A DNA stretch of 64,000 bases from Morchella semilibera (Eukaryota > Ascomycota > Pezizomycetes > Pezizales > Morchellaceae), in contig CM018605.1 of the NCBI GenBank assembly GCA_009192285.1, forward strand, positions 706,767 to 770,766. The letters run 5' to 3'. Below the pieces are notes generated by a model. It searched no databases. It saw only the letters and a program-made list of their open reading frames with translations, and had not been told where the DNA came from. The position numbers and the translations under genes are program-made. Positions 290 to 63,110 of the stretch are shown here, one piece after another; the stretch's first letter is position 1; each line of letters opens with the position of its first letter.

Positions 290-2052
290 GCGAAGGAAGG
301 GGGGAAGGGAGATGGGACTATGGGACTATGGGACTAAAGAGGGACCTGGGACGAGAGGAGAAACTGTGAGGGACATGTGAATAGCTAACTTAAGTAGGGC
401 AGGGGCGGCGTTTAAAAAGTAGCCGCTTTTTTTCTTTTCTTTTCTTTTTTGTTATTTTGTGTTTTTATGTTGTTTGGATTTGGATTTGTTTTTTGCTCTG
501 GTGGGTCTTACTGGGCTGGATAGTTCTTTGCAGGTACATGTAACTACAGCAACGTGATATTCGTGCGGTAGACATACAGTATGAATACCGTCTTCTTAAG
601 AATGGTACATTCCCCAAAACGCCGATATAGGTCGGTCATCTCCAGAAGCAAGTCAGGCAGGTGATACGCATTACAAGTTGAATGCCGCCTGTACACTCCC
701 GTCTTCTGAGCACTACGATAGTCCGAGCGTAGCGCATGGTAAAGAAACTAGCAGCACAGCAGTAGGAGTGCCGCATTCTATGGCGTCTGGAATGCGGCAG
801 CACCACCGAAGCACCGCTGTATGCAAGGCCATGCGTCTTCCCCTGTCATCCTGTCGTGTTACTGTATTCTCTTGACACAGAGTACAAGATGGGTATGGTG
901 ATACTACGGTCTGGTAGATAATGTCACGTCAATTCTCTGCGCGGCCATCGCAGTACCGGTATTCTTCTCGAGAGTATATTTAGGGGAGTGTAGTTGTGCT
1001 ATAGTACGGCCTCTGGATGCGGTAGGGCTATCGAATACACATTTGCGGCAATGTCACTTCTACTCCAGAAAAAAGACCCCCGGCCATATACTCCTCCGGG
1101 CGCGCATGGCACCAGTGTACTTACGTAAGAGCACCCGGTCTGTCTCGGGCGGTTGAGTCACGGTGGCTCACTCGCCCGCCGGCGGCTGCGGCTGCGGCTG
1201 TTCTATGTTGTTCTAACCCAATGCGGTTCGACGCTCTGGGCGTAGACCTGTGGCCCGGCGTGTTTCGGGTAGCTGGTTCTGGAGTCGGTGTCTGGACGGT
1301 GCAACATCGCTGACCTGCCATATAAGTACGGCTACGATAAAACGGCCCGTTGGGCTTCCGAGTGATGGTGGTGCATGGCCGCCACCCTCCCTGCCGTAAC
1401 GCAGGATATGGCAAATGTGCCTGTCTATACCATACTTTGCGTAGGCTCTCGCGCTGTGAGACACTGGCGATGTCTATGCTCCCCTCCTTGTTGTAAGCAA
1501 CGGGTTGCTGGGGCGGTTTTGGGGGGGGGCGCTTTTCATACATTGCTAGAGCTAGGAATTATTCCCACCGTTTTAAAGCCGGGGAATACTTGATTACCCG
1601 CCGTCCAAAACATCCAAGAGATACATGTAGGTAAGGGAGTGGCTATCGCCCGGGAATTGGGGCCAGCAACAACAGACTCGGACCGCCCCCGTCCACCAGA
1701 CAGAGCCTTGTACATAAGAGGTCCCGCGCAGGCTCTACTATAGTAACTAGGGGATAGATATAGTGTAAGCTATTATCTAGATACATATTTATCACTCATG
1801 ATCACTGGTATAATATGACACACATTATCATACTGTGTCTTTGAAGACAGGATAGGGGTATATCATTACGGCCCGTTAGAAGCAAGAAAGGGTATCAGTT
1901 GCGGGGAAGGAAGTCTACTACCGGGACAGAACGCTCTAAATCTACGCATTATCCCCCGCCCTCAGCGCGCGGCCATCTCTATCACCACTGCCCTGCATCT
2001 CCTTTGCCGGGTCGAAAACATACATCGGAAACTGTCAACACATTATTAGCAA
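290..2052. other. Intergenic spacer
   Basis: No convincing gene. It holds T-rich sequence behind TVP23 (420-500), two TACATGTA palindromes (535 and 1622) and a GC-richer patch around 1090-1540 whose open frames on both strands show no recognisable domain. The strand ends at the tail of the DUF1295 gene. Confidence 0.6.
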
Positions 2053-3106
2053 CTACCCGAGAAGCGCAACAGGGAATACTACCTCGAGCCCCACGGTCCT
2101 CTTCACCACGACCGGCAACACCTCCCACACCCTCCTCGGCATCGGAACCAAGATACTCGTCCTCCTCAAGTAGCGCTCATACTCGCTCCAGCCCGCGCCG
2201 CCTCTGCCACCTCCTCCTCGCCCCGGGCCTCTCCTGCAGGTTGACGCCGCTCAGAAACAGCAGCAGCACAACCAGCAGTACGGGCCCCGCAACACTCGCC
2301 CACAGCGCTGCGGCCGCCCTCCCGCGCACCGCCCCCGCCGCCGCCGGCGCAACAGCGATAAGCCAGATGCCAAAGTGCAGGGTGATCTCCCCAAAGTAGT
2401 TTGGGTGGCGCGACCACTTCCAGAGGCCGCTGCACATGAAGAGGGACTTGTCGCGCTGCCCGGGGCCCGCGCGGAAGGCGTACTTTTGCGCGTCGGCGAC
2501 GGTCTCGGTGGTGAGGCCTAGGGCGAACAGGAGGGTGCCAATGATGTCGAGCGGCGTGTGTCCGAACCGCGGGTGCGGGTGGGTGCGGGTCGTGGAGGGG
2601 CTATTGAGGATGGTGATAGGGAGGGAGACGGTCCATACCCAGAGCATCTGGAAGAGCCAGAAGCCGAGGAACTTGAGGAATTTGTCGCGCATCTCGTCTA
2701 TAGGGCGGGTTAGTATTTGTGAGAGCCTTACACAATTGAGTTGGGGGGGGGGTACTGAAGCGGTCGTCCTGGCCGGTTTTGAGAATGCGGAAGAAGAGGA
2801 AGCCGGAGAGGCGGGCGCCCCAGTTCATCAAGAAGATTGAGGCTACGATGTTCTGCGGAGGAGGGGGCTTGTTAGCTGGAGTATGGACTTTGGCGGGTTT
2901 ATACTCACTCTTGCATCTTTGGCACCGCTGAAGCACAGAGTGACGACCGCGAGGAGTATGAAGTTTGTTCCCACCCGCAAAGTCTGTAAGCTTATCGAAC
3001 CTGAGCGAGAACGCAATCGTGAGAAGAACAGCTGGTAGGCGATTGTTATGAGCAGTGTTGCGATGAGGTAGTAGTCGTCAATTGCGTATAGGGACATCAT
3101 GATCAC
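2053..3106 (-). CDS. DUF1295 / steroid-reductase-like membrane protein, with apparent frame disruptions
   Basis: Exons (minus): 3106-2909, 2852-2756 and 2697-2177 give an open product of 271 aa; family-like sequence continues in another frame to a stop at 2053-2055. It resembles DUF1295 proteins (3-oxo-5-alpha-steroid 4-dehydrogenase-like, isoprenylcysteine methyltransferase superfamily), multi-span membrane proteins. Seen: DDYYLIATLLITIAYQLFF at the N-terminus, MNWGARLSGFLFFRILKTG in exon 2, FLKFLGFWLFQMLWVWTVSLP in exon 3 and the hallmark WSRHPNYFGE. Introns are 56 and 58 nt. Odd: codons 29-45 (3022-2972) read SRLRSRSG..., while another frame of the same DNA reads SLRFDKLTDFAGG, the conserved family sequence; two opposite one-base shifts explain this. 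A third shift near 2180-2230 would restore WSEYERYLRRTSILVPMP. It may be a damaged allele or assembly errors. Substrate unknown. Confidence 0.8.
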
Positions 3107-4793
3107 AACAAGAATAGCTAGCTAGTTTATAAACTACTACTGAGTAGCTTGAGCCTGAAGAGATGGCAAGCTGTACCTGATATCTGTCTGTCTGATATAA
3201 TAGTAAAGTTAAAGGGCAAGGCTTCCATTTGGATGCATTGCTCGAGGCTGCATTTGCTATGGCTGTGTTGTGTAGGTGTTTTTATTGAGTCCTGTGATGC
3301 TCTCGGAAAGTGTTGATTCGCAGTATCCCATGGCGTCATTGACTCACGTTCCCGAATCGCCCGCTTATGTAAAGCAAAGCAGGCAAGCAAGGGGCAGGCA
3401 AGCAAGGCTTTGTGGTATTTGGAATATTTCGAGGCTGGGAGATTGCAAACAGGGCTTCTGGCTTCGAGTGTTGTTGGAAAAGGTACATGTATGATACCTT
3501 CATGGTCAGTTCGCTGGAATGGGGTATACATGTATGCTTTAGAGGAAGCCCCCCCGCGAGTTGGACCCAAAACTAATCGCCGGGGAGCACTACTCTATGT
3601 AAAGTAGCTTAGTAGAGTATCTACCGCTTCGGATCATGAATGGGCACAGTTCAATGAGGTTAACTGCTGGTCGGGTCATGGACGATCACTCAAGATCGGA
3701 GGCTAATGTCGTAATGTGTTAGCCGTAGGAAAGGATAGAGGCTCGTTAGAGTGGTATCTGGTACCTACTAGTAAAGTCCGTAAACATTTCTCTTACTCCT
3801 GAAAGCCCAAGTCAATCATCATCGACTGCTAATTCAGTCAGTTCTACAGACCTCAATTGCGTAGGTAATAACTACATGTATCAGTCTGCTCTGCTGATTA
3901 TCGTGATATTGCCAAGAGATGCGGGCGGATCTGATAATCTCAAACTCCCCGCGTCAGAAGTCCGTGTGTATCCTCACCAAACCCGAGGGCCTCGGCCACC
4001 ACCCCACACAAAAGGGCAAACAATTCAGCCTGGCCGTTTGACGCAGGTCCCCCCCCCCCCCCTACAACATGTAACCTTATGTTCGACGATTCCAGGAATT
4101 TAACCCCAACCCTGGCCGGTAAACATATAACCTTACATCTCTTCGTCTATGTATCATCATCGGCGGTGAATGGAGAATAGACGGGGATGGCGCGTGTGGG
4201 ATGTTCCGCTTTTGCATGTGAATAGGTAATACGGCCAAGACCTAGACCCTTTCGGAACGCGGGGGTAGAAAAAAATCTGGAGAAGGAGAGTCTCTCCTCA
4301 AACCCTTATGTAGTTTAGATTGGTGAGAGATCGAGGAACAGCGTGGGATGGTTTTCACATGTCAGTCAGGAAGTCACCTTGCTGGAAGGTTGTGGTTGGA
4401 CAACACTCAGGCCGTTCTTCACATGATGGTGAACTCTGGGTTCAAAGCTTCATGTGGAACCAAAATGACCGTCATTCAAATCCGTAAGCAGGTCTCTGAT
4501 TGGCTGGCCCCACACTTTTCACGTCCTCCGCGTGCCAAGGGCTGACAGGAAAGCCTCGGTTGTACGATACCCCGAAACAAGACGCACCCCCCCATTGCCG
4601 CTTGCGAGCGGTACAAAGTCAGATCCCAGCCCACCACGTCTTCCCACTTCCTCTACTCCTCCACCTGCTTCGTGTCCTCATAACTCACCTCTTGCCCTTT
4701 TTTCTCATTCATTGCACAGAGCTTTTCAGTGAAATTACATCTTAGAAAACAACAGCTTGTCGTTATTACTATCTTTCATCACAAACTGAAATA
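3107..4793. other. Intergenic spacer and promoter region of the fumarate reductase gene
   Basis: No gene recognised. Contains three TACATGTA palindromes (3484, 3527, 3873), a short GGCAAGCAAG-type direct repeat at about 3374-3408 and a run of 14 C at 4049-4062. The last 150 bases are pyrimidine-rich, as is usual upstream of fungal start codons. Confidence 0.5.
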
Positions 4794-11257: not shown

Positions 11258-13138
11258 TTTTTTTCTTCTTCTTCTTGTAAGGTAGCCTGTAACGGAACCG
11301 GGAGTAATGACAGTCCGGGGAAGAGGGAGAGAGGTGGGGAGCGGTGTATTTAGGATGTTGTCTTAGTGCAGGGATATAAGGGACAGATTTTTACTAAGCA
11401 CTCGGAAGGTCTTGGCAGGCACTTGCCTCAGACAGGAAATCGTAATAATTTTAAGTGGGGAGAGAGGGTGCATTGGCTTTCCCTCTGGAACAGCAGCTGC
11501 GATTGAGATGGTGGCAGAGTTTGTCGGATCGCTTCAGTAATATGTAGAGTCAGCACCGGTGACAGTAGCAATCTACATGTAATCATCAGTTTCCAAATCC
11601 GCCTGTGGGGGTACTCTAGGTAGGGAGTTTACCTACTCTATCCTAGGCAGTTGTATTACTACCTGGAGATACCCCCTCCCAGTGCCAAGTTGTCCTCAGG
11701 AATCCAGTGATTTGCTAGATCATCACGCCACAGTAGAGATAGGCTTTCTGACCAGTCACCAGAGGTGCTTCCTGACATTAATTATCACTGTGGGCTGTGA
11801 TTGGCCGGCTGAACGTCGCTGTTGTTCATGGATGGGATCAGTGACGTCGGGTGCCTTGGGTGTTTCTATTTCTAGCGCACCAGTCCTTGTTCCTTTTTCC
11901 CCAGCGCCACATACACATTGCGTACGCTTTTTTTGAACGAGCCCCACGTCTGCAACGTCGTTCACCCTCTCTCTTGAGCGGAGTTGTCCGTACCCGTTCC
12001 CGGAAAAAACGTGATACCCTCTCCTGGGGAACTATTTGAGGAGACAAATCAATAATGGGTTACAGTATATGCATGTACCTGGTAGAGTAGGAGGTACCAT
12101 ACCATGAGTGTAAATAGAATACATGTTGTTTTGCTGACCAGCTGGTTGACTGATGATTGATTGATATACTTTACACGCACCTATCGGTATCGGTACCTGT
12201 TGTATTAATTGGATGAAGGACGAGCAATGAAGGGAATGCACGTACGATTCACAGACGAGGAAATATCATCACCTCCTTTGTGTGAGTGCGAGAGGACGAG
12301 ACGAAGGGAAGCAGCCCGTATGGTGTGTGTAGAAAAAGAGCATACCACATACATACACACATACATACATACATGCCTTGCTCGCGTACTATTGATTGTG
12401 GTGCATGCAAGTTACGCAAGCTTTCATGTGGAACGCAGCAGAAGAGGCAGTTTTTTTTTTTTCAATTGTACCCTTCGTCATCTCTTTTCTCAACTTTGTT
12501 TCTCTCCCTTCTTCCTCTTTGCATCCTCTTCTTTCCCACTTTATACTTCCCCCCACAAAGCTTCTAGAGGATTCTTCTTTTCCCCCTCGTCCGGTTACTG
12601 ATTCCTTCCGCTGGAAGAGTCACTTGTGATCCTGTCAAACCTTCTTCATAGTAACCTACCACTGCTACTGCTGTTACCACCAACCACCACCATCTCTCTC
12701 TGCATCTGAAATTCGGCTGCGTCCCTGTTGTATAATAAGATCGTCTCGCTTGTTACACATTTTCGCGTGGCTCTACCCTAAAATCCTACGTAACCCTCAA
12801 CACCGTCGAACAGGGAAAAGAAAAGAAGAGCATTTCCTCATCCCGCACCGGTGTGTTTCAACACCTTACTAGTACACAGCAGTATCATCACTTAAAATAT
12901 ACAATCTACTCTATTGCCAACAACCACCCCTTGTGGATCCTTCTAGTCTGGTATATTTTTCCCCCTGCCGCCCTCCCCTCGTACGTTCCTGCGGGAAAGG
13001 GAACTAGCAAAACGTCGCTCTCGCCGATTTTTTTTTTCCCTCACCTAATCGCTGTAGACGAGCCGTCCATTCGCCACATCTTTCGATTCTTCGCACTACC
13101 GCTAGCACTCTCCTCCGTCAGATATATAAAGTAGAAAA
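11258..13138. other. Intergenic spacer; promoter and long pyrimidine-rich leader of the DUF2406 gene
   Basis: No gene recognised. One TACATGTA at 11574, a CATA repeat at about 12350-12375 and, from about 12450 to 13138, strongly CT-rich DNA with almost no G, typical of fungal promoters and 5' leaders. Short open frames in the CT-rich part have the Phe/Ser/Leu composition expected of pyrimidine tracts. Confidence 0.5.
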
Positions 13139-14559: not shown

Positions 14560-16366
14560 AGGTTTTGGAGCATAATGCATAATGCACGTTTTTGAAAATT
14601 TTATTTTTATCCTTATTCTTCTGTTTATATTTTTTTTAGGGGTCTATGGTTGGGGAGGAACTCGCTATCAAGTTTGGAGTTGAGGGGGGGGGGGGGGGGG
14701 GAAGGCTTTATCGGGCTTTATCGATCCCGAAAATCTACCCATGGTCAGTCAGTGGGGCGTAGGAAAACGCAGCGTGGGAAATATGATGGCTGGTTTCCTT
14801 TCTGTAAGTGAGCTTTCTTCTAATTTTTTAGCGACGGAAAACAGTGTGTACTATCGGTAGCATATCGTTTCTCTCATTTCTATGCTCTTCTTTGTTTGGG
14901 GGATGTATAAACTAAAGCAAAGAAGTTTCACGATAATGGTTGGTGCGGTCAGATTGTATTGTCTATATATATGGTTTCCTTTCATTCCCCCTTTTCGTGG
15001 GTTACTTATATCTCTACCCCCGACGTTCCTTCCTTTCCCCTCTTATGAGTGTTATGTTTATGAGGTTTTCTTCTCTTACTTTTGTGTTTCCTCTTTTTTT
15101 TTCTTCTCTCCTTTGGGCACGGATTCATGGGGAAGGTTTCGGCGACACATTTTTCCGGGGTTTCACGCTTTTTTTCTTCTTCTTATGGTATTCCTTTGGG
15201 GGAGGGTGCAATTCTCACATCTCTTCCTTAATCTTGGGATTGTACCTGAATTTACGTCCCCCCTTACTTAATGTACAGGTGTGTGTGGGGTGGGATAGGG
15301 TGGGATGGGATGGGAAAGAAGCAGGGGTCGGAGTACAATCAATGATACCCAAGATGGTTTACTTATCAGCAACATTCCACAGCGTGCGGATAACAATTAA
15401 ATTCTTGCTAAAGATATGCTCTGTTTTGAATGCTGATTATCCCACGGGCCACCCACCCTTCGGAATGTTTACGGGGAGAGAATGGGTGGAATCATGGTGT
15501 AGCACTCGCACGCATGTACGACCCGCTAGGGATCACAATGCGAATATATATAGAGAGAGGGAATATAAGCATATAGAGGATAGCTTGTCGCGATCGGCTT
15601 TGGACGAAAGCCTTAGTACATGAATCTTATAGGAGGAATCGTTCTCGGTAAGGGTGCCCTTTCTTTCTTTCAGTTCGTATGTCGGGGCCCTGTACGTGAT
15701 CCACGGGCCCCCCATGGCCCACCCCGCTATAAGCGTGTTAAATTCTAGTCCCGGGCGCGCCCTTAAAGATAGCTTCTGCCGTAGAATGTGCCTATCGTTT
15801 CTCCCCCGCTCTCGCGCGTTTGCGAGGTATAGTATATGACAAGCTTCCCTTAGGACTACATGTAGTCAGCCAAACCCGTGGAAATCACCCTCGTTTCCTT
15901 ACTAGTAGGTCCTGCTTAGACACCGGGTCGGTGAGCTAAGATGCGTCCTTGAGATGCATTATTTATTTCTGTGGATATGCCAGGTTGGTTTGAGATTACC
16001 AATTTCGCGGGGATATTAGTGTATTGGAAACGGGTTGTGATATAGCCAGCCATGAGCAGGAGGTGTTGCTGCAATTACTCAATGTATGTATGCGTGTTTC
16101 TGCTACCTTGACGTCAATTACTACTTACATAGAGAGTATGTTTCTAATAAGCTATTCAGTAGTAGTAAACTATATGTACACACATTCTATAGCCAGTGCC
16201 GAAGGACTAATGGCTCTTCACCCCCTCACTGACTGCACCGGCCCCCCAAACCCAAGACCTTGGGCCATAAAGCACCATTGACACCGGCCCCAAACACGAC
16301 CCCGTGGACAGCCGACGTCCAGCACCTACATCCCCCATTAGCACCACTACTAGCACCCAAGCTAGG
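14560..16366. other. Intergenic spacer
   Basis: No convincing gene. A run of 18 G at 14684-14701, very T-rich sequence at 14820-15250, a GGGAT-type repeat near 15287-15320 and a 12-bp perfect palindrome GACTACATGTAGTC-type site (core 15857-15864). Long open frames at 14882-15623 are a product of T-rich composition. Confidence 0.5.
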
Positions 16367-20570: not shown

Positions 20571-22256
20571 ACAGGGTCGCAGGAAGACGCGTCGGGTCGC
20601 GCAAACCGCGACGCTTATTCATCTTGGGTTTTGACAGAGCTTGGCGGTCTCTATCATGCACCCTATCGTGCAACCCCATGCAAATGCAATTACGGTAAGA
20701 TATCTCTCCAAAGTATTGCGTTTTCAAATCAGTGCACTTTAATAACGATTCTAAACAATGAAGTCATTGCGGGTTGGAGCTTCATTTGTGGGGGAGCCAC
20801 ACGCAAGATTCCGAAATGAAAGGGTTTAGCGAGCTGAGAACGAACAGACGCTCAGCTCAAGAACTCTAAACCTCCAAATACTAGGGCAAATACTCAAACA
20901 CATGCGTACATGTCATTGGACCCTTTAATCGAACCCCGATGTTTTTCAAACGATAGGAAAAAGTAAATTATACACATTCGGTGATCGTATTTACCCCTGT
21001 GCGACTTGCTCGTTCCAGGGTTGGCTCTGATACATGTCTCTAAGAAATATATTCGGAACCAACCCCTTTAATGGGTTCAAAAGTAGGGTACACCCGACGA
21101 ACAAAAATTAGTAATGATAACTGGCGTCAATAATCGAAATTTACCAGAGCGTTGCTAAGATCTTGTGACATCGGACTAGGTACGTACTAAGGTACCTCAT
21201 GTCTTCCTTAACGACCTGAGGCTGGATCACGCGCTGGGTAAAATCGCCAGAATCCTCAAACATATCACTCCCTCGGGAGAAGGGATCCCTACTTACTACA
21301 TAGAGCAAACCGTTAGCGACCTGGAGACAAGGTTCCTCTTTAGATAAACATTTAGAGTATGCCAACGCTTTAAAAGGAGGTGATGATCACTGATCAGGGG
21401 AGTGTGGACCGGAAAGTTCGGCTGTATTCACACTTAATCCGATTGCAGGTAACAGTTCATAGGTACCATAGGGAGGACTGTAGAATGCAAAAGAATAATG
21501 AGACTGCATGTAAGTACGTAATCTCCTTTCTCCCTCTTCTCCGATGAATTGTAGCCCTAGCCTCTACGTAGATTCATGTATTTATTCAATACAGACGGCT
21601 GCACGCGCAGTGCCTTTAAATCTAAAAATTGAGAACATGCATAAAACATGAAAAAGATAAAGTAACAACCAGCATCATTGATAACAAGCACACAACCCGT
21701 ATTCCAGATAGACCCATGGAAAAGATTTGCCAGGAAACAAAACCTATTTACCGCGCCGAGTTTTTACTATAATTTATCCCCCAACTTCTTGATTGGATGA
21801 AAAATTAGAGAGGCTTACAAAAATAGTAAATATCGCATCACATTGGGGTGGATGGTTTAAGCCAATTGAGGAATCCCTGCGACCGCGAAATTACATGTAG
21901 CTACATGTAGTGAACTAAAATCCCCTATCCCGCACCCTGCCCCGTTAGTCGCACATCGTTTGCCAAGGGGAAATAGTTTGCCCTTTCTGTCTCACGCCAT
22001 GCACCCTAGTCGACAATTTGGCCTGCCATATGTCCCCCTGCCCGCGCCAATTCTATCATACCCTCGAGTATTCATTCGCAGTACTTAAACCAAGTCCTCT
22101 TCTTCCCCTTCTGTTTCCTTTCTTCTCACCAGTCCACACACTCGCTCCGATCTCTCTTACTTACTACTTACCCTTACTCTATACTCTAATACCTCCTAAT
22201 AACTGCTCTTCAGCAAATAACAAGAAGTAACCCTCTTTCACCCACTAAACGCAAAA
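20571..22256. other. Intergenic spacer
   Basis: No gene recognised. AT-rich sequence with a pair of TACATGTA palindromes 10 bp apart (21892 and 21902). The last 200 bases are CT-rich and likely hold the promoter and leader of the downstream cysteine-rich protein gene. Confidence 0.5.
21892..21909. promoter_or_regulatory. Double TACATGTA site, 10-bp spacing
   Basis: Two palindromic octamers at 21892-21899 and 21902-21909, about one helical turn apart and about 350 bp upstream of the cysteine-rich protein start. A second pair with the same spacing is at 47960 and 47970. Confidence 0.6.
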
Positions 22257-45718: not shown

Positions 45719-47568
45719 GAACGAGGAATTGAGTGACTGGAACTGGTGGGTGGACGTGGCGAGACGGCAAGCTTTATTCACGAGCAAGATAGCAACGGGG
45801 GCGTTGTAATGGGGGGGCAGACACGATCTTGCACCCGGGACGGGGGGGGGGAATTTAAGCAATTGGAAAATCTAGATAGGGTAATATCTCTTGGTGTCTG
45901 GCATCTAGGTTACGAATATCTATGCAAGTCAAGTCCCCTCCATCTGGATTCTACTCAACAACCCACCATCCACCGCCCTCCCACCCACACCCACCCAACC
46001 ATGTCCGGCGATCTCGAAGGGGGCGGAGAAGTTCCAAGCGGGTAGCGAACGGGTTAGATCAGCGGTTTTTTTTTTGCTGGGGGAATGGGCCCACTGCGGG
46101 GTGGTCTGTGCGCTCGGTTATTGGGCAGAAAAAACTGTTGAGTGCAGGAGGAAGCGGGTGCGGTCTTGACTTGCTTGGACAGATCCCTTTTTGATATGTA
46201 CGATGCTGGATAAAAAAAGACCATACCCCCCCCCCCCAAACTGCTAGGGTAAAGACGTAAAGCCATCCGCCATATCCCCTACATGTAGTTACTAAGAAGT
46301 TCGGTTTAATTTGGCCGTTCCCAGCCTTCTAGTACAACAACGTTCTTCGTCCCGCACTTGTAGCCCTACAATTCAACCTGTCTCAACAGGAGAATTCTTT
46401 CTTACCTTCTAGAAGGTACAGAACTGCGGGCGAAAGAAAAAAAAGGGGGGGGGAGGGTTTCTACGTAACTACATGTAGGTAGTATGTAGCTACTCTCGCC
46501 ATCTCACCAGGAAAGCTTGTAACTACAACAAGTCAAACGTCACGATATTAGCGACGACGACAATGATGATGACCAATACCCAATCAACCCTGTTTTGTTC
46601 GTAAAAACCCAGGAGGATGGCTGCACAGTGCCCCTAACTGATTCCGCGTGATATGATTGCTGGCTGTTACATCATCACCACCATCATCGTCGCCATCATT
46701 CATCATCGGCGGTGCTACTAGGGAAAACTCCGATTCGTTTCACGGTGGTGGTAGTGTTTGGAGCTACCTAAACCCGACCGCGGTTTCGGGCTTGGACAGG
46801 CGCGCAGGCAGCTCTCCAAGTAACTGGTAACTTAACAGGTACAGAACATGGGCTCGCCAAATCCACTCGGGTCCTCCATGGCATGCACGTAAGGTAAGGT
46901 AAGGGAGTAGAGTACATGTATGTAGCTGGTATTTTCTACAAAAGTCTCATCCTCCTCCACTCCCTGTTCCCCGCTACTGGAGGTACGAGGAAGATCGATG
47001 GAGATCCAAATAAACCACCCGCTAGCTCGGGCTCTGACATCTCTCGGCGTTGAAGTGAGCTGGCAAGCAACAAGCTGGGTTTCTCGCCTAACGATGGGAT
47101 TGGTTGGAGGCAGGTCTAAGCCCTACCTAGCTAGCGATCATGATATTGCGAATAGCACTGCAGAACATCGGTCTCATCGGTGTGGAAGTTAGTACTTAAC
47201 TCATTGTTTTGACGAACCACACCCTCTTCTCCATGGGAAAGAAGAAGAAAAAAAGCTTGCCCCCCCCCCCCCGTAACACAGCCATAGGGCGCGGGATATA
47301 TGATGGATGAATAGCTGCTGCAGCCTTGACCAATGGCTTCTGGTTGAAGCACATGTGCATACAAGGTTTCAGTAGATACATGTAGATACACAATTGACTG
47401 ACTACTAAGTATGTGTAACTCTCTACCTGACTACCTGCCTGCCTGTCTCCACATACTTTACAGGGACATGGTAATTTGTAAGAATTGTAGCCAACGACCG
47501 CAGAGCATTTCTACAGGTGTCGGTGGTGGAGGCGCAATATACTCCCAGTATCTGTCTTCCATATACTA

Positions 47569-47959: not shown

Positions 47960-47977
47960 TACATGTAGTTACATGTA
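47960..47977. promoter_or_regulatory. Double TACATGTA site, 10-bp spacing
   Basis: Octamers at 47960-47967 and 47970-47977 repeat the 10-bp spacing seen at 21892. It lies in the gene desert, far from any recognised gene. Confidence 0.55.
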
Positions 47978-48607
47978 CCTTTTGCATCATATCAGCCTCC
48001 CTGTGGTGAGACAATTATATCATTAACTCGACTCCGGGTCTAACTGCAACTACCCATAGATGAACCTTTCATTGTTTGAAACAAGTATGATCATATATAG
48101 CATAAACCACTCGGAAATAGCATATGTAGTTCCCAATATTGCCCTTTGGAGATAAGGGCGGCAGTTCGCATACATTTGGTTCTCACCGAGGGGTACATGT
48201 ATGTATGAATATGTAACCGGAACACAGAAGGCAGAGAACACACAGGACCGCCGGGCGTTATAATTCGTGCACTGGTGATTCAATTCATGTATGTACGCTT
48301 CATATGTGCGTACAGCTAGTCGGAAAATGTGGAGGAGGAGAGATCTCGAGCGCGCCTAGAAAATTGTGCAGGGTGCAGTACTACTGTATGTAGGTCTGGT
48401 TCGCCTTTAATTTTTTTTAGCGGTCAACCTTTGTGGGGAATTGGTATGCACCCAGTATGTACGTACGTGCAGGCACGGCAGAGGATCGAGCGAGAAGGCT
48501 TTGAAAATGTGACTTGTCGGGTAACATGGGTAAATGTTTACAATACATGTAGTTACCGTGTCATGATCAATCACTCGGCTGAGTCTAGCACTTTTACTCT
48601 GGTCACA

Positions 48608-51211: not shown

Positions 51212-52334
51212 TAGGTTACCAGAGGATGCAGCCGGCTCCATCTGCGCAAAAGATTAAAAGCTACCGACACCGCCGACACGCATCTCAAACAGCCGGCCTA
51301 AATCTAACTGCAAACTCCAAGATTGATCACCGGCATCCGTTTGTCCATACTATGTACTTCTACATGCACCTTCCCAGAGACACATGCATACACCTACACC
51401 CACCCTGCCCACTGAACCCCCACAGCCGAAACTTTACCGAAACACCAAATGTAGCTACACACATGCAAATACGTAGGTATGACTCTATCAATCACGCACC
51501 ATATAACAAGCATTTGGCATCCTCGGCGCATCTCGGGTTCGTTGCGACTTCATCCGATTAGTGATTTTGCTTGGCGCTTAGCTATCTAGACAGAGTAGTG
51601 GGGGGTTGCTGCATGGATTATCACTCGGCACTTGTGGTTAGGCTAATTTCAACGTGGGACGTATGCTGTTCGTGTATGCAATGCCGTTTCACGGCTATTT
51701 GGGAGATTGAGAAGCTGGCGTCGGGTAGTAGCATACAGGACGAGGTTAAACTTTGGGGTGGTGGTGATTGTTGCGTTTTTTGTACAATTGTGCATGCAGC
51801 GGGATATCATGTATTAGCTATGAATTGCAATTGAGCCGTTGACTCCAGCTGTAAAATTGGATTGTGGTTTAGTGGGTGGAGGGGTCGGTACTACATGAGT
51901 AGATAGAAGATAGAACTGCCTTTTTTTTGATTGGGTTGTACTTGCCTAAAGGCACATGTATGTATATGCAGGTACCAAATTAAATATAAGTAATATTAGC
52001 CTTAGCTCCTTAGCTTAGAAACCTTTTTCTAAGTATTGTAAGGTGACAAAAGTTCTCGTGGCTTCTGCATAGCAACCAGCAGAAACTTCCTGAAAGTCTA
52101 ACCCGAAAAGCCGGCAATAGGGACTTCAGCCTAGATACTATGTTCTATCAACCTTGAGCTTTCTAACAATACTAATATCTTCTTTACATCTCTTGTGGTC
52201 GCCAGGTTATAGTTGGTTCACGACCCACCCTTCTACAAAATCACGGGAACCTTTGTCACCCTACATATACAATACATGTACTCGCTCATATCAGCTTAAG
52301 TTCAAAGACCTGGTTCATTATTCACGAGCCAAGC

Positions 52335-52369: not shown

Positions 52370-52799
52370 CTCAAGGCATCCCGTGCTCGTTGTCTTTAAT
52401 TACATCTATCTATCCTCGAGGTCCGTCGCCACAGGCACTCCGAGGATACATGTAGTAAAGATCATTCTGCGGGGACAGGGCTGGAGTAAAGTAGGGGCTT
52501 ATATATATGATCCCGAGTCCTTCAAGGAGAGCTATTAGTATCCTCACACCATAAGAGTTACTATACCCATATGATGCCCTCTAAAGAGCTCAAGGTAAGG
52601 ACAGGCAGTATTGTTTCTAATCTAGACCTCCTGTCCTTTCTAATTACTACATGTATCTATGTATGTCCTCTAGTGGCGCTTGACGTTCTCGTGGACCATA
52701 AACCTGACCCTAGGCCAAGGTTAAACCCGACCTTAGCCCTAAGAGCGGCCAAACTTTTTCTTAGCACGAAAATTGTTATTTCAATAAATAGTTCTTTTC

Positions 52800-52885
52800 T
52801 CCTCAACTCTCCACCACCAACCATCACCAACCACCACCAACCATCACCACCAACCACCACCCACCACCACCACCACCATCAGCAC
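52800..52885. repeat. ACC-rich trinucleotide repeat
   Basis: Repeated CCACCAACCATCA units degenerate to (CAC)n. Simple-sequence repeat without coding sense. Confidence 0.8.
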
Positions 52886-55800
52886 GGCTCCGGGGGCCAA
52901 GGACCGGAACTGTGGGGCGAGGCCCCGGACCTATCAGCCAATTGGGGATTAGGCACCCCCGCAGGCCCTTGTGGCCGCATCGCGAGGCTTGGCCTCCGAC
53001 GTCCCTGTTGCCTCTTCGGAGGCATAATGGGTTTCCGGACCAGCGCGCAACCCCCCCTAACCGTCCCTCTGTCTCCCTGTCCAGATTTTCTGGACTGGGA
53101 ACATGGACAATTTCTCGGTTTCCCCGTTAAAATTTTTTTTTAACGGGAACCGCGAAGCTACGGTCAGAGCATTCTTTGGTGGGTTAGGGTTTCTTTTGGT
53201 TTTTTTTATTTTTTTATTTTTTTTTAATGTATATTAATATTTTATTTAATTTATTATTTTATATCCATTAACTGTTCTATTCTTCATCTATTAACCTATT
53301 GTATTGATTGAATCGATTCAACCAGGCCTAGCCTAGGCTAGGCCTTCCTCGATGACCACATACTTACTGTCCCCGAGCTCGACGACTTCCTCATGAGACT
53401 ACATGTAAGTAGTAGACCCTCCTCTAAACCCTAGCTCCAGTATATACAGATATAATATAGGAGTATTAACGCGCACATATTCTATCCCTATCCTCAATGC
53501 AGTAACCGGGGTACAAATCTATTCCGCCCTCCCGGTCCCCCACAAAAGAAAAATGAAGAACATTGTGGGGCCGGTAGCACTAGAGAGGGAACCCAGGGCA
53601 AGATTACATCTGTAGCTATACAATTAGATCGCCCTATGAGGGTACCCTATATAGGTAGTCTGTGGGAATATTTGGCGTGAAATTGACTGGGGCCTAAGAT
53701 ATATGTAATCTTCCAATAGTAAAACGAGTAAACGACAAGCAGGACACCTCTGTCTCGAGCTACAAAATCCAAAACGCAATCGTTACAAGCTGGCTGTAGC
53801 TGGTAAAATTGAGCGCAAACCTTCCGCTTAGCCTAAGACTCATATTACCATACTATCAAGAACATCAGTATAGTTCATGAGGCCATAGTACTCTCGGGGT
53901 CGAGCACGGGCGGTACATACAAATCAAGTGATTCACAAAGCTGAGCACCTCGAGGCCACAAAGGAGACATCAAGGCCCTCAAAACTCTAGCTCTATATTT
54001 TAGAGAGTCTGGTACCTTAATTGTAAGGTTGGATTCTAGCCCGGATAAATCCTTGTATTCATAAATATATCCCTTTGGATATAGGCCATGGTTTTTCTTA
54101 ACAATCGATCGCGAGGGCGTGGGCCGTGGGTTAATTGGCCAAATACTTATGTGATTAATAGGGATATGAGTAGGCTATAGGTCTACATAGATGGGGTACT
54201 TCAGATTTCTTATACATACGCGATACTGGTGAGATTGGATTCGTAGGAGCGTGAGGCGCTTATAATTTTATACATCTATAGATCTAGTTATAATGCGATT
54301 GACAACGGTGTGAGAACTACATGTAGGCTTTTGGTTTTGATTCACATGTAGCTTTTCTCCAGCCTAGTGGAATAATATTTAGGTAAAAATTGAGGTGTTG
54401 TTTGTTAGGTGTGTGTTGTATAAAACCCATAGTGTGATGCACATTTCCTTCATAGGATCTCACTCGCGACCGGACAAACCCAAATCACTGCTTTTGATTT
54501 AAATATTCCGATGCAGAAACGCCAAGCGAAGACACCAGCAAGAGAATTGGTTAACTGGATACTCGTTTCATCCCAAGAACTCTCCCAGCAGCCTAACCTG
54601 ACTCACAGTACTGACTCATAGGGGCACTACAATGACAACGATATATATACTCCTAAAGCTAGAGGCCACGGAATTAACATTGGCTTTAGGGTTTTGCTCC
54701 CAAGTCCTCCCAACATCCTATTTGTGGTTTACCCATGGCCATCCCTCATTGCCTTACAGCAGGCTTGGAATCCAAAAGTTGGTAAGCAGGGTATACTGGC
54801 TAAAGTGTACAGAAACTCTTTAGGCTTGTTGGCGATGTAGAAACTACGCGCGTTACGAAACATCCTCCCTCTTCACTAAAAAATTTAGCTGCAGATTGTT
54901 TGTGCAGTATATATGCTTATTTGAAACAGATGACTTGACTTTGTAATGGGTCTAGACCACCTCACGACCTATAAAGTCATTCTTCTTGACGAGAATACCG
55001 CATGAACGTACGTTATGACCGCAGGGGAAAAAACGTTGTGTCAGTCTGAAAATGCGGTTCACTAGGAGAAATGTCTCTTATCTCACCTTATGAAGAAACC
55101 CGAGACATATCCACCATTGAGTTTTATACACCTCAGCACATCATAGTCCCCTCTGCTTGGAGAAGTCTGAGTGGTTTCCGAATTGCACACTATCTTCAAC
55201 TTATTTGGATATTGGGTAAAAGTACTTTAGATGCTATCCGGTAAATTTCAAGGCTCTGCACCTCTTCTTCTTCTAATACTTATGAACTGAGATTGCATGG
55301 GGTTTGAGGTTCAGTCAAAGTCTTGGGGAAAGGGTATTTTTACAAGGATCCTCCTCCATCCTTAAGATATCATTCCTTATGGTAATGTAGCTTGGGTCAG
55401 ATTCACTTGTAAGCAGGATCTGTTTATACAACTTGCATCATACGGAATGTATTGATGATAAACGTCTTCCATACCATACTTTGGGTCAGAAGACTCAGAT
55501 GCCATGATACGTAAAGGATCTTGAGAAAATCTCGCGAGTCTATCCCGTTTTTGTTCAAGAAAAAGGCCATTCCTGAACTGTCAAGTCGGACCAACCAGGA
55601 GGTTTAGGCAGCCGGCCTGAAATAGCGAGTCCGATTGAAGGGTAGCTCCAGTAAGTTTTTTTTTTTTCCCAGATATGCATGCCCAGATATAGTAGTCCTG
55701 TTTCAAGGCCAGAACTGCTTAGATTGAAAGGAGTTCAAGGAAGAGCAGAAAGAAACCAAATTCCTTCCTTTCGAAGCGCATTAAGGCTGACTAGGGCCTC

Positions 55801-57990
55801 AAGAACGGAAAAACCACTGGAATCTCTTACCCGGGATAAGGGAGTCGCTTATCCTTTGTATGGGCGCTGCCGTCGTTAGGGTGGTTTGGCGGTGGCTCTT
55901 GAACTAACTGTTGTATGTGGGGATACCAACAATCCATATATGGTCTTCAATTTATCATATTCGCCTCAGCCAGTAGGTCCTTAGCACCGTGCTTCTAGCG
56001 GACCAGTACGTTGTTCCGCAATACTAGGAAACTACAAAGATTTTAGGAGACTTTATAGGACTTGATTGTTAGTCCAAGATTGTAAACGATTGTATGAGTA
56101 TGTTGTATTTTTGCGCTATATTTAAATAAATTAAAGCCCATATTGTAACTAAGTCAAGGGAGGTAAATTTATGGTATCGAAGACCTTTACTTACCTGTGG
56201 TTTCCTTCCTTGTGATTTGGTTTTCCGCCCACCCTGCGATCAATGCCCCGCCAAACCCATCCACCATGCCTCATCGTTTTGATACATAAGCAAACGCGAT
56301 GGAATCTATCTATCGTTAGGTCATTATAGGGATCTAGGGGCGGCAATATTAAGTTATTTAACCAGGTTAACGGGTACTGTTACCTACCGCAGGGATGTAG
56401 GCCATAAGATCGGCTGTGCTCATGAAACCTCACTCCTCCCGGTCATTGCGGGGTTCTGAAGATTCGGTTCGAGATTAAATATTAGACCACGGGGCAATCT
56501 TTGGCTTTGATGCACCTTGAGGCAATGATACGTTGTCGTTGCATCTTGAAATTGACGACAGAATGAACGTACTGACACCTGACACACCTTATCCGACCTC
56601 GGGGCCAGAGGTAGTCTCGTACCCATCCCTACGAGCAGCTTTCTGCTAGCCGAGAGGCTATCTTAATGGGCCACCGACGTATAACTCTCTCTCTCTGCAG
56701 TGGTGAAGTGGCACCTCAATCAAATGGAGAAGGGTACCCTGTGTTGGCTGTACTTGTGGTGGGGATGGCAAATAAGGATTGCTTGTAGTAGAGGGTTATG
56801 GTTTAGGATTCGATCTAGTGAAGTGGACTGATGGTTTCTTTGTGTAACAGTAACAGTGTGTACAGCCTCTAAAATAGTGGGTAGGGTCGAGCTTAGTTTG
56901 TAAGGTAAGTGGTGGTGGTGGGAAGAAGGAAGGTTTAGCCACGGTTCTAGCGGATAACTAGGACAGAGTTACATAACTACATGTATTACTGTCAACCTTT
57001 CTCAAAATTTAATCCAGCCGTTTATCCTTACATGTTATCCAAAATTTTCTATTAAGACTCATGTACGTATCTATCGTTATCACTATAGCCGACTGGTGGC
57101 CAATGATGTCCTTGACTCACCCTTTCTCAACATTCCAAATCTAGAGTATATCATCTCTGGGATAGGATAAGCAGGATAACTTACTGATTCTTCGTGCTTT
57201 TAGCGCTAATTGATTTTTAAATATTATGGCATTCCAAATATACTTCATGTAAGACTCCAAAAAAATCTGCTATGGCTCTCGTGTCTTTGGCGTTTTATTT
57301 TTTTTCACCATTTTTAATATATACATATTTCGTACTGACGCGGCCTTTGACGTAGAAATCACACCCTCACGGGCGAATTATTACCGTGCCCGAAAAATTT
57401 AAGCTGAGTCTGTGCTTCTGAAGATTTGTACGAGCACTGCCAGCAATGCTCCCAGCCCGAATTTATTTAATGATTGACAGGTTTACAGGGGTTGCGTAGG
57501 ACTTTGCTACCATGGTACATACATGTACTTACTAACCCTAGTACTCTTTTCTCCGGTGGAAGGAAGTAAAATGGTACAGGCGTGGATTTCCGAGTCCCAT
57601 CCGCAGGATCATATTCCTACTCGAAGGAAACATCATCCCGACTACTAAATGAGTCAAATTTCAAGTTTGGGCATGAGTGCATGGCATCACTGCTAATATC
57701 TTCGGCGTCTTATTAGTCTGATTACTAGGATTATTTATGGTAACCGGACGGAGCGGGGTTCCGCGTCCCTTCCCCAGCCGAAATCTTTTGTCAACACGGG
57801 CCGACCCGACGGTGTAATATGTTCACCCAGGGGCTGAAGATCTTCGATGTCAAAGAGCTGCCCATGTTCTTATGCCTGCAGCATATCGGCGATATCCGAG
57901 GAATGAAGAGACAGCGGGTCCATGTTCCGGCCTGCGTATGCACCTTTGAAAAGAAGCGAGTTATCGTGTTACAGTTAACCAGATGATGTA

Positions 57991-58123
57991 CCACAAAAAC
58001 TCGGAAAATTGGCTATCTCCGGCCAGGGATTACCTCCTTCACGATTGGTTGAAGGGTGAAGAACAGCTCTGCTTATAGTAATTTTAATCTCATATGCATA
58101 GCCAATTTTTGGAGTAATGGCGG
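57991..58123 (+). mobile_element. MITE family 1, copy B (TA-flanked)
   Basis: 133 bp, same orientation as copy A. Left end CCACAAAAACTCGGAAAATT and inverted right end CCGCCATTACTCCAAAAATT; TA at 57989-57990 and 58124-58125. Shares the blocks GGCTATCTCCGGCCAGGGAT and AATCTCATATGCATAGCCAA with copy A; the middle carries a few substitutions and short indels. Confidence 0.85.
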
Positions 58124-59919
58124 TATCTCACGAAGTTTCAGGTTTACCTGCTACATACATAATACCCCCAAATATAGAAGATCTAGCTGGCAAAGAAGCC
58201 ATCAAGTGGTTACAAAAAAATCTCCGGATCCTCACGACGTATCACTCGGGCCACATGCCCGTGGTTAGTAATATACCTGGGGTAACTTATCAGATGTAAA
58301 CTTTGGGGCTGAAGGATAGGGACCCGGATTTTGTGGTATTTGTTCGAGAATATCTTCCTTCTGGGTCTGCTGCAAGACTGTCTATTCCTCACAAGGGATT
58401 AGGTAGCTTCAGCCTTACACCCGGAATGCTTAATTCTTTGACATTTATGTTTCAGACCTGAATAGGCAGATGTCTGGAAGGAAGAAATATTTTCCATACA
58501 TGGATTACTATAGTACGGACCACCACTACTCAAGTGCAAAATTATCTACCGACATACATACATACATATGTATGCACATATATGTAGTAACACCTCAGGT
58601 CACGTTACAAAAAGCCTGAATTATATGTACATACTTATGTACCCCCTATATAGTAGCTCAGCCCGTACCCTCGATGTATCTATAGCTAGGGTATGTGCGA
58701 AGGGTCAAACTACTTACATCTACATATTCTAGTCAATAATTAGAGACTCTGCTTAAGTCCAGTAGTGTAGAAAGCCTTGCCTATATGCAATTAAGTTCCC
58801 GTCTAAACATCAGGTAAAACAAGAAACCCGAAATATTATATTTATAGGGTGTAAGATCACAGGCATACTTGCTTACCGAGCCATACAGACGCTTAGTCTC
58901 GAGGCGAACCAAAGGATCAACTTTGAGAGTGCGAAACAAAGCAAAGCTGCATAACCGGTGACCATCAGAAAAGTATGCAGCCTCGTATGACCCGAGGGTA
59001 CCGAAGGGATACGAAGAGGGCGCGAGACATATGCAACGCGGCTGTGCTCTGAGACAGGAACCAGGAAAATACCATGCAGCGGCGCGGAAATCTCCAGAGA
59101 TCGCCAGGGGGGGAATCTTGGACAAAACCTTATTTCATGTGTGCAGTGTACCGCCACAACGTTGGTCAAGCGAGATGTGCACCGCCTTGAAAGCTTGAGG
59201 AGGCCTAATCCTGACTGCTGGATATATCTACATATATGTATATAAGTAATCGGAAAATTAAGTGTAATTTGTAAGAGAGTATAATCTTTTTTATAGATTA
59301 TAATATCGTTGAAAGCGACGTTGGTTGGTACTATTAACTGAAGCTTTGGGGCTAATTATGTAAGTACATGTATATATGTTTCTGGAGTATCGCCGGACTA
59401 GGGTATAGATTCAGACCCCGCTGATTGTGCCACAGATTCTACTCTACTCATACCTTAGCATCAGCTTTTGGTTCAGTTTTTTACTTAACACCGTAACTCA
59501 TTTACTACTTCACCCTTTCAAGAAACGAAAGTTTGATTTGGAATATCACACGCGGGCATAAGCGCTAGGCCTGAACCTGCGTCGAGAATCCCCGTATATC
59601 ACTAAACAAAAATATCAGCACCAAGACTTTAGAGTACAAGCCAGATGTACCTTATATCCACCTATCATTAATTGCTTACTATGTCACGTGGGAATCTTCA
59701 ACCCCGTGTTTCACAATTGTGGGACCCAGGCAGAAGACTACATGATGTACTTGTATTCCTACTTCGCCTCATGGCAGGTATGCAGGTATATGCATAAAAA
59801 AAGCGGGTTTAGTTATAAATATGTAATAATAGTAGAGAACAAGTAACAACACCACATCTTGACAGAAGTCAAGGCAAATTCATAATCAACGACACAAACT
59901 AGTATACCAACTTCCACCA

Positions 59920-59922
<3 letters not shown>

Positions 59923-59966
<44 letters not shown>
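59923..59966. repeat. Homopolymer A44
   Basis: 44 consecutive A, the longest homopolymer in the window, about 95 bp past the stop codon of the minus-strand gene at 60062 (T44 on its sense strand). It could be the tail of an old retroposed copy or simple slippage; no target duplication was found. Confidence 0.85.
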
Positions 59967-59967
<1 letters not shown>

Positions 59968-60061
59968 CCAGCTAAACACCAAATCGCTAAAGAGAAGAAA
60001 AAAAAACACTTTGACTCTCCTTAAATCGTACAGATCATGAGACGTGAGAATATATACCCAC

Positions 60062-60968
60062 TTATACACGGAGAATATACTCATTTTCACTGAGATACCT
60101 TTCCCGGTCACGAGTACATGTAAGCATAACTTCTTGCAGACGAAGTAAAGGGCCTTGGATATTACTTACTGAGACAAATGAGACGGTAAGGTATAGCCCG
60201 GAATCTTCTCCGCTGATTTCAATGCAGTAACTGCATCTTTGAATTGTAACTGTGCGTTCTTTAATGTGGAGACGTTTCCGAGAGACATACAAGCCTCCGC
60301 ACGCTATGCCTGTTGTCAGCAAAGTGTTGATACTACGTAGTAGATATCAAGGGTATCTCACAAGTGCTAGAAGCTCCCCAGTGAGACATTGGCGAATGTG
60401 CGAATTCTGGACAGCCCTTCCAAAGAATTCAACTGCAGGAATGAGAACCGCACGGGCCTCGACATAATTGGCGGTATGCCTTCTTTTCTCTTGGATTCTA
60501 TCATCTTCTTCAGTACCAGAAGAGGACCCTTCTTCCTGGTGAATCTTCGAAAGCCAATATTGTGCCTTTGAAAGCCAGGCTTGCCCAAGGCCTTTGTACA
60601 AGAGTGAGCATTTGTAGTAATACTTAGTGAGGTAAAACAAAAGATATATATATACCTCTCAAAGCGTCAATATTGGTACCATCGGTGCTAAGAACTCTGT
60701 TCCATTCCCGTTCGCACCACGCCGAAAGATCAGCAATTGAGCCATTGTCCGCATCAAAGTATGCAAAATTCTGGATTTCAGTGATGAACCAAAGTCTCTC
60801 GTCAAGACGGTTGGTGCCTAACATAATTTGGCTGGTCTCAATGTTGTTCACGCATGTACGGACTGTGTCGGCGTGTTTTTCCCACTGGGAGGGACTGTTA
60901 GAAAGGGTGCTACGGATGTTGTTGAGGCTGGCTTTGGCACTAGTGATGAGCTGCTCGTGTTTTTCCAT
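60062..60968 (-). CDS. Conserved fungal protein of unknown function (helical, TPR-like)
   Basis: Four exons on the minus strand, 60968-60656, 60591-60362, 60303-60170 and 60098-60062, 237 aa in frame. Strong sequence blocks are LGTNRLDERLWFITEIQNFA, YFDADNGSIADLSAWCEREW, GLGQAWLSKAQYWLSKIHQE, ARAVLIPAVEFFGRAV, GELLALRAEACMSLGNVST and IPGYTLPSHLSQYLSENEY. I recall this architecture from uncharacterised fungal proteins; the helix pairs look like TPR units that bind other proteins. No catalytic motif, signal or membrane segment. Intron 3 (60099-60163) carries a TACATGTA site, the only one inside a gene. The last exon is only 37 bases and would be missed if the in-frame TAA at 60166-60168 were taken as the stop. 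Confidence 0.8.
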
Positions 60969-63110
60969 TGTAATAGCTTCTGGGGATTGCTTGTAAGGTT
61001 TTTGGAACTGAAGAGTGTTCTATGGTGATTGTAGAGGATTGAGATTTGCTGTTGAGATGAATATATAGAAAAGCGAAAATAGAGGCCCATTATATACATA
61101 TATTGCAGTATGCATTGCTGATAATGCTCCGATCTGTTTTGGCATAGCACCACTTACTTCATGCTCTTCGAAAACAAGTCAAAAAAACAAAGAATAGGTT
61201 CCAAAACAACGGGACACAGTGACCGAATTGTCAACAAATGACGTGCATTTTGGAGCTGAAAGAGACTCGGGGAGAGTGGGGCTTCTCGTGTTCCCTATCC
61301 TTTTGCCCGGGAACCAAAGATGATATTCTCATCCCTTGTTTCGACCGCCACCCAGTCTCTATTGAACAATTGGCTGTAGAGTAATAACAATCTATTTTGA
61401 TCAAATGCATCTGAGGAGAAGGAGTCACCTTATCCCCGGGACAGTGCATGCAACTGGTTTCCGGGTCCCGGTACTATGTAAGGTTTCGTCTTCTCGGAAA
61501 GAAAGCTGTTTTCAGTATATTAGGCTATAGCCCTATTGAAATATCAGATGTTGATAGGCCTGGATAGAAAAGCCCTTAGCTAGTATTGTATCCTACAAAA
61601 GCATATTTATGCCGTGAGGACCCGAGTCCTCGGTGAGACGGTAGCATAAGCGAAAAGTATGCAGCTGCAACTCGATCGCAGGGCATCTGAAATCCCGGAA
61701 CCAAGGAAGCAGAGAGGAAATCCAGGCTTTAAGGTTCCACAGAAATCGATGGGCTGTGGAAAAAGACGCCGCTCGCGGTGGTATTCGAGCGGCAAAGATT
61801 TTGGGTTCGACGATAGCCGTTGGGTGGTAACCTTGCGGTCAAGATGGACTGGAATTAAAGAAACTGCCTTGCCTAATTTTCTCCGGCCTGACTCAGGTAG
61901 AGCAAAATATGCAAGTACATGTAGATACTACTATACGATAGTTAGCTATAGCTACGAGTGGTAACTAAAAAACATCTAGATATATCAGGAAACCTAATGA
62001 CAGCATGGGTATTCGGTCCGCTAGGGTCCAATACATGTAGATTATAGAAAGGCACTGCGTAATAGTAGATATGCAAGAGATATAATGAGGCCAAGAGTAT
62101 AAACATCAAGAGCCGCATAAATGCCCTCTTTTGTGTAGATACATACTTGGGTTTTCATTTACATACATACAAATCAGTCAATCATAAGCAAAAGGCAATC
62201 TAGAGAACCCCCGAGAACACTCTAGGGGTAGGGGGTGAGTGGATTATGACATACACATACACATACTCATGGGATGTTTAAGTCATGAGTAGTATGTAAG
62301 ACGGGCAGCGAACGTCCGCTAGCATTTTGTCATCTTGGAGGTTGAAGAATCGCATTGTTATTCGCCACGAGGTCAGCATGCATGGCATTGGGAACGAGGC
62401 TTAGTTCGTTGGTTGCACGATTTATCGGGCAGATTTTATGCCCGAGCTAAGATCTCGCCAAAATCCGGAGCGATCCTTTAGATATAGCATTTTAGGTATC
62501 CACGATAAAAATTTCCAGCTCGGCTCAAGAGCTGAAGAAGTTAATGATGATAGATTCGACTTTAAGCTGGATACCATCATATAGTGCTCGACATGGGGAT
62601 TCGAGGAATCAAAAGACCCTTGGAGCTCACCTTCCTGAAGCAGGGGAAGAAGGTAAGGTAAGGTAGGTACATGTGTGTAGTCGTCAGGGTAATTGGTACG
62701 GTAGTTGCCAACTCTCTCTCACATGACGGAACCCGTGATTTCAGTGATCAAAAGAGAGGGAGGTGGGATGGGAGAGGTTTTGTTTGGCAAGAGATCAGGT
62801 TTTCTTTGTGCCCAATAAAAGATGTGAACACGTAGGCCCTGTTTTTGCTCCTACCATCTTCCATCGTCCTTCTCGAATAGGTCCCAACTTCACTGGGTTG
62901 GACTTAATCGGAGCTTCATTTACCACTGCAATAAAGTAAGTAGCCCAGCCTGTGCGTATTGGTCCGCAGTGAACTGGTCCGTGCAAAACCCACACTGCTC
63001 CCGGAGTCCCCGACAGCTCCGGGCGCAAGAGAGCTTCCCTACATGTGCAAGCGCTGTGTAGAAGAAGCTCTGTAAAGTAGCTACCATCCCCTCCCTTTAC
63101 ACTCTTCTCC
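60969..63110. other. Intergenic spacer
   Basis: No gene recognised. TACATGTA at 61916 and 62032. The stretch 62810-63110 has GC-richer sequence with many CCC/GGG words and a 14-base match (TAGGCCCTGTTTTT) to MITE family 2, perhaps by chance. The last 60 bases are CT-rich, as expected ahead of the next start codon. Confidence 0.5.

Follow-up and report, generated by a model that had tools for sequence, protein, structure and literature searches.

The 64,000-nucleotide stretch of Morchella semilibera DNA analysed here (contig 3, positions 706767-770766; hereafter, the window) raises the question why a single 8-bp palindrome, TACATGTA, recurs in it so far beyond chance, and what its copies might do. 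A preliminary description of the window had counted 33 copies where about one was expected. All 33 were found in place, at 535-62039. The genome assembly (56,756,124 bp, or 56.8 Mb, in 23 contigs) was then counted as a whole, while close reading covered 314 kb, consisting of the window and the blocks C1:1.0-1.2 Mb (52 sites) and C2:2.00-2.05 Mb (17 sites), both picked by coordinate ahead of any count of TACATGTA in them. An extra block, C12:300-310 kb, yielded 5 more sites.

Over-representation of TACATGTA was confirmed as real, genome-wide and sharply sequence-specific. Dinucleotide-preserving shuffles of the window gave a mean of 0.72 copies (standard deviation 0.84, maximum 3) and none of 100 reached 33; Markov expectations were 0.8 (order 1) and 1.29 (order 2). 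No other octamer of the same composition was comparably frequent. Among 1,120 anagrams in the window, the runners-up ATACATGT and ACATGTAT reached 11 copies each, both of them overlapping TACATGTA itself, and the remaining anagrams averaged 0.89. In the 314 kb, 102 copies compared with a mean of 4.8 for the 1,119 other anagrams, with runners-up at 35 and 30 that again both overlapped the motif. Genome-wide, 22,206 copies were found versus approximately 866 expected at even composition (56,756,124/65,536), an excess of about 25-fold; this expectation is close to the scaled-up anagram mean. The reversed word ATGTACAT occurred 3,723 times and was thus itself about fourfold up. When all 256 palindromes were compared in the 314 kb, leaving aside the dinucleotide repeats TATATATA and ATATATAT, the next most frequent had 17 copies, and the next TACNNGTA word had 9. 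In the window and C1 block combined, the eight classes of single-transversion neighbours of TACATGTA summed to 73 copies versus 71 expected, which corresponds to background, while the four single-transition classes summed to 81 versus 36.5 expected, approximately twofold up.

Locations of the sites were assigned with a simple ab initio gene caller, a hidden Markov model (HMM) trained in this study, which labelled exons, introns and intergenic DNA. In the 314 kb, 101 of the 102 copies were intergenic and one was exonic. The absence from exons noted in the preliminary description held for the window (0 of 33 copies) but did not amount to avoidance, since exons were near chance, with one copy seen versus 0.31-0.46 expected in 77 kb. 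Location rates were computed without the repeat-rich part of the C1 block beyond 1.14 Mb, on which basis exons held one site in 65.7 kb. Where intergenic DNA lay 200 bp or more away from coding ends, 97 sites were present in 161.7 kb (0.6 per kb), which is 31-35 times the anagram mean. TACATGTA was depleted in introns and gene flanks: introns and 200-bp gene flanks together held 3 sites versus 16.0 predicted from the distal rate (Poisson P 9e-5), with no copy in 5.6 kb of introns and 2 in 10.5 kb of 3' flanks (0.19 per kb, versus about 0.6 per kb farther out). Under the same gene calls, the control words T8/A8 and G8/C8 peaked in introns and 3' flanks, so that the intergenic pattern is specific to TACATGTA. 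Poly-G/C octamers were very common: predicted introns had 6.4 per kb, and DNA up to 200 bp from stops had 5.1 per kb.

The end of the C1 block, 50.7 kb once N are discounted, was likewise almost devoid of sites, with one copy versus a Markov background of 0.31-0.68. This segment encodes a reverse transcriptase with RNase H and is repeat-rich, a recurring 16-mer starting at 12% of its positions versus 0.8-2.6% elsewhere. Scarcity of sites in this retroelement-rich DNA decides nothing between the explanations discussed below, because neither footprints of old events nor the products of slow mutational processes would be expected in young DNA.

A concentration of copies at 46.2-62.1 kb (19 of 33, versus one, at 39982, in the gene-dense 34-46 kb) was borne out, and the density in this interval was about twice the intergenic mean. 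An interpretation of TACATGTA as a mark of gene-poor DNA as such was, however, unsupported, the rates being similar whether coding ends were 200-500 bp, 500-1000 bp or >1 kb away. The apparent preference for a "gene desert" is mostly the general intergenic enrichment of the octamer. Moreover, genes may be present even in the 46-62 kb interval, given minus-strand open reading frames (ORFs) at about 60.35-60.97 kb. These overlapping ORFs (60347-60968) resemble exons of a gene missed by the HMM caller.

Flanks and spacing of the sites followed fixed rules. The dinucleotide TA stood exactly two bases from TACATGTA (offset 4) in 74 of 214 flanks, compared with 7-31 flanks at other offsets from 2 to 28, save offset 10 with 38. 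Genome-wide, TA at the 2-bp gap accompanied 8,087 and 8,250 of the 22,206 copies on a given side (36-37%), and both sides carried it in 3,317 cases versus approximately 3,000 if the sides were independent. Pairs of octamers at exactly 10 bp, of which the preliminary description had correctly given two in the window (21892/21902 and 47960/47970), numbered 606 genome-wide. Spacings of 8 and 9 bp together accounted for 149 pairs (about 75 per spacing), and those of 11-40 bp, 30 in number, for 2,106 in all (70 each).

Tandem duplication was considered as a source of the 10-bp pairs and rejected. In the sequence read, the two-base spacer was unlike both outer flanks in five of five pairs, and in four of four triplets among the 10-bp pairs listed the two spacers were unlike each other, which argues against duplication. 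In addition, other octamers showed no preference for 10 bp once duplicated flanks had been removed: those recurring with differing flanks numbered 5 at 10 bp, 10 at 9 bp and 2 at 11 bp, of 175,435.

Of the three meanings offered in the preliminary description (a site for an abundant homodimeric factor, the footprint of a mobile element and a mark of gene-poor DNA), the first fits these observations best. On balance, TACATGTA is probably the core of a putative cis-acting regulatory site, recognised by an abundant sequence-specific protein that acts as a homodimer. This interpretation is favoured by the palindromy of the octamer, its restriction to intergenic DNA, the constant 2-bp gap to the TA half-sites and the exact 10-bp pairs with unrelated spacers. 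The full site would then read TA-NN-TACATGTA-NN-TA, in which the octamer would be bound, as double-stranded DNA, by one dimer, with the outer TA steps acting as weaker additional half-sites. Another octamer exactly 10 bp along, after one helical turn, would allow two dimers to lie next to each other on a shared face of the helix, where they might bind cooperatively. The role of the site would be in gene regulation.

Several observations weigh against a regulatory site of this kind. No binding protein was found; the sole TALE homeobox gene found reads WFINARRR, although intron-split genes may have been missed, and a search of the genome for BEN domains, whose target is CATG, gave 0 matches, with a control that was also without signal. 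The rate of sites was flat with distance from coding ends (0.75, 0.51 and 0.59 per kb at 200-500 bp, 500-1000 bp and >1 kb, respectively), and no positional peak appeared near predicted start codons, which stood in for transcription start sites. Divergent intergenic regions showed a modest excess only (0.83 per kb, versus 0.56 in convergent regions and 0.61 and 0.24 in ++ and -- regions, respectively). A density of 1.2 sites per kb in the 46.2-62.1 kb interval (19 in 15.9 kb) is high for a specific regulator, and per-kb clustering of the octamer was weak (variance/mean 1.28). The ab initio gene calls that underlie these rates are incomplete. With respect to spacing, octamers generally recurred at 5.2, 2.4 and 1.0 per 10,000 at 10, 9 and 11 bp when tandem arrays were counted, although this general preference for 10 bp disappeared on excluding duplicated flanks. 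Finally, 501 overlapping pairs spaced at 6 bp (TACATGTACATGTA) occurred genome-wide and are unexplained by side-by-side dimers; relative to its own background, recurrence at 6 bp was about 21-fold up for octamers generally and about 40-fold for TACATGTA.

The flat distribution keeps a second explanation in play, in which TACATGTA is an element of chromatin or chromosome architecture, insulator-like or similar to the site of a general regulatory factor, spread through intergenic DNA rather than a promoter element. Density that stays level from 200 bp to >1 kb from coding ends, the 19 sites in the 46-62 kb interval and the presence of sites in convergent and divergent intergenic DNA alike would all suit this alternative, while the modest excess in divergent regions points to promoters. 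We regard it as unlikely, though it comes nearest to the regulatory-site interpretation. Slightly less probable still is a more specific form, in which a genome-wide lattice of an oligomerising fungal DNA-binding protein, of a general regulatory or architectural type, organises unique intergenic chromatin. Such a protein would recognise TA half-sites that lie 10 bp apart along one face of the helix and would be absent from transposon-derived DNA.

An origin of TACATGTA as the neutral product of TACA/TGTA-type microsatellite or short-hairpin dynamics is rather improbable. TACATACA and TACCTACA are enriched too, the 501 overlaps at 6 bp look like slippage, to which the general recurrence of octamers at 6 bp adds, the enrichment of transition-only neighbours resembles decay, and retroelement DNA would be too young to have accumulated sites. 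These dynamics do not readily account for the other TA....TA palindromes, which, TATATATA excepted, reached only 0-12 copies in the 314 kb. Nor do they fit the spacers of the 10-bp pairs, unrepeated in all five, or the lack of sites in introns and their scarcity in gene flanks, both of which are rich in poly-A/T and poly-G/C tracts.

A mobile-element footprint fits poorly. In its most concrete form, a Tc1-type element would insert at TA and be cut out 2 bp inside its CA...TG ends, leaving TA-CATG-TA after repair. In the excerpts available, TACATGTA is indeed mentioned for C. elegans as an uncommon footprint of Tc1 excision, identical in all eight letters. The M. semilibera genome contains transposase-domain matches (69 DDE_3 and 96 DDE_1, duplicates included), the overlapping 6-bp pairs could have arisen by nesting, the outer TAs and the 10-bp pairs would likewise follow from a transposase with an unusual preference for TANNTANNTA, and few footprints would be expected in young retroelement DNA. 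The M. semilibera sites nevertheless differ from Tc1 footprints in pair spacing, in the missing parent elements and in intron depletion. Lacking a preference for TANNTANNTA, excision should produce 8-bp pairs at approximately 0.84 times the number of 10-bp pairs (about 500; TA autocorrelation 1.37 versus 1.63), whereas only 149 pairs occurred at 8-9 bp, about 95 of these at 8 bp (32 of 50 places listed). In 254 kb of site-rich DNA no dispersed high-copy repeat was found: only 2 of 101 high-copy 14-mers were dispersed, both homopolymer-like, and recurring 16-mers, with recurrence sought within the 314 kb, occupied just 0.8-2.6% of positions. Some 22,000 footprints would therefore lack visible parent elements. 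The half footprint TACATA/TATGTA was 1.9-fold up, inside the range of 1.6-2.3 for the other TANNTA words listed, and introns had no site in their 5.6 kb. Inverted repeats ending in TACA numbered 3, and six control starts gave 0-2, counts too close together to interpret; a search for an empty TA counterpart, which compared C12 with C13 over 9,963 bp, met no variation to compare. Overall, an excision origin is improbable, more so than one through microsatellites or hairpins. A 3'-end or RNA element with UGUA on either strand, suggested by TGTA on both strands of the octamer, is very improbable given the poverty of 3' flanks (2 sites in 10.5 kb) and convergent intergenic DNA no richer than divergent DNA.

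TACATGTA has parallels outside the fungi. The HIP1 sequence of cyanobacteria is an octameric palindrome that occurs tens of fold over chance genome-wide and is frequent in coding DNA. HIP1 and TACATGTA thus share form and a huge excess, but TACATGTA is confined to intergenic DNA. In Irx proteins, the specificity position of the homeodomain is occupied by alanine (Ala50). An Irx-type TALE homeodomain was tried as a binder and rejected, since the single TALE homeobox gene found, in a search that may have passed over intron-split genes, has isoleucine there (WFINARRR). The connection with this family comes from Phytophthora, where, in the sections available of the papers cited, promoter motif-1 is the same octamer, TACATGTA, associated with 12,070 genes; it was regarded as suggestive of a homodimeric factor and compared with the targets of Iroquois (Irx) homeodomains, for which TACATGTA is cited as the preferred site (PMC3520976). 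The motif M93 is again TACATGTA, with 4,150 occurrences in P. infestans promoters (PMC3597505). According to the same sections, work on motif-1/M93 dealt with upstream regions and connected the motif with growth and infection-stage expression (PMC3520976, PMC3597505).

As far as those sections go, M. semilibera and Phytophthora share the octamer and its abundance in upstream DNA. Phytophthora is an oomycete and not a fungus, and the likeness need not reflect homology. In M. semilibera, by contrast, the density of sites stays level throughout intergenic DNA, and the rules for TA at 2 bp and pairs at 10 bp come from the present analysis, not from the Phytophthora studies. Promoter-type use of TACATGTA is already known from Phytophthora and, by analogy, the fungal case would add to a known kind of motif. 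No fungal report of TACATGTA was found among the papers listed, which is weak evidence and no proof that none exists; the accessible part of PMC10137650 holds nothing on it. If a protein binds it, TACATGTA would be one of the commonest regulatory words in this fungus without a known reader. The strict grammar of a 2-bp gap and a 10-bp repeat should make a putative binder easy to fish out. Such a protein would show whether filamentous fungi own a factor of general regulatory or architectural type that differs from the yeast ones, and the identity with the Phytophthora motif makes convergence a question that can be tested.

Individual sites in the window, to which no strand is assigned, illustrate these rules. 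Reading of the flanks showed TA at the 2-bp gap on both sides of the octamers at 27426-27433, 47377-47384, 57520-57527 and 59365-59372, and of that at 46470-46477, which lies inside CTACATGTAG. TA was present on the right only at 535-542, 1622-1629, 46913-46920, 48194-48201, 48544-48551, 52648-52655, 53400-53407 and 61916-61923, as well as at 29848-29855 and 46280-46287, both inside CTACATGTAG. It was present on the left only at 3873-3880 and 56978-56985 and at the sole copy of the gene-dense 34-46 kb (39982-39989). The octamer at 54318-54325 also lies inside CTACATGTAG, an extension that, as had been described, recurs in the window (6 occurrences), and that at 3527-3534 lies inside a 10-bp palindrome. 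A longer perfect palindrome, described as 12 bp at 15855-15866, does exist but measures 14 bp: GACTACATGTAGTC, at 15854-15867 around the octamer at 15857-15864, is the longest built around a copy of TACATGTA. The two 10-bp pairs are TACATGTA-GC-TACATGTA at 21892-21909 and TACATGTA-GT-TACATGTA at 47960-47977. Further copies, recorded by word count, stand at 3484-3491, 11574-11581, 26417-26424, 33757-33764, 52273-52280, 52447-52454 and 62032-62039. The copy at 60115-60122 is near the possible missed minus-strand gene, so that its intergenic label is uncertain.

The gene caller required some correction. An order-5 HMM, seeded with 38 kb of ORFs, called a false gene opposite DCAF13, which an order-3 model fixed; antisense ORFs over DCAF13 were taken out of the training set and the DCAF13 frame was put in by hand. 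The caller retrieved genes for DCAF13/Sof1, adenylate kinase, an SNase-domain protein and a DUF1264 protein, all backed by Pfam or solved structures, and the introns of its models were short and of the GT-AG type. In a Pfam check of 10 sequences, 8 had a family match (one, Vezatin, below the cut-off) and 2 had none. The three best solved relatives of the Sof1/DCAF13 protein were all labelled Sof1. A DEAD-box helicase in the sample, seen by its Pfam domain, was taken to be Mph1. These two proteins and the short GT-AG introns point to a fungal genome, in keeping with a filamentous ascomycete.

The assembly carries duplicated sequence, and the genome count of 22,206 therefore includes some loci twice. 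C12 and C13 were identical across the 9,963 bp compared (10 kb at 300 kb). Positions of transposase matches also agreed between C9 and C10 and between C21 and C22, suggesting two further duplicated contig pairs.

Other dispersed words were seen in the noncoding DNA, and TACATGTA, as the extreme of such a set, is mildly favoured as a binding site. The non-palindromic CGAGTGAT (extended form, CCGAGTGATA) had 53 copies in the 314 kb, approximately 11-fold over chance in noncoding DNA; its copies, spread singly, were densest in 3' flanks and at distances of 200-500 bp from coding ends, and the retroelement-rich part had 0. In the window it occurs at 1359, 8158, 16939, 22497, 26597, 30242, 33682, 42575, 48570, 51620 and 58241, and it is also present in the C1 and C2 blocks. 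Telomere-like boxes, GGGTTAGGG, had 21 copies in the 314 kb, single and dispersed rather than in arrays, with 1 in the retroelement-rich part; those in the window are at 29778, 32654, 39604, 49431 and 53181, with others in C1 and C2. A local array of nine AATGAAGCTAAAAAG words, spaced by approximately 150-330 bp, was found at C2:2035187-2036642.

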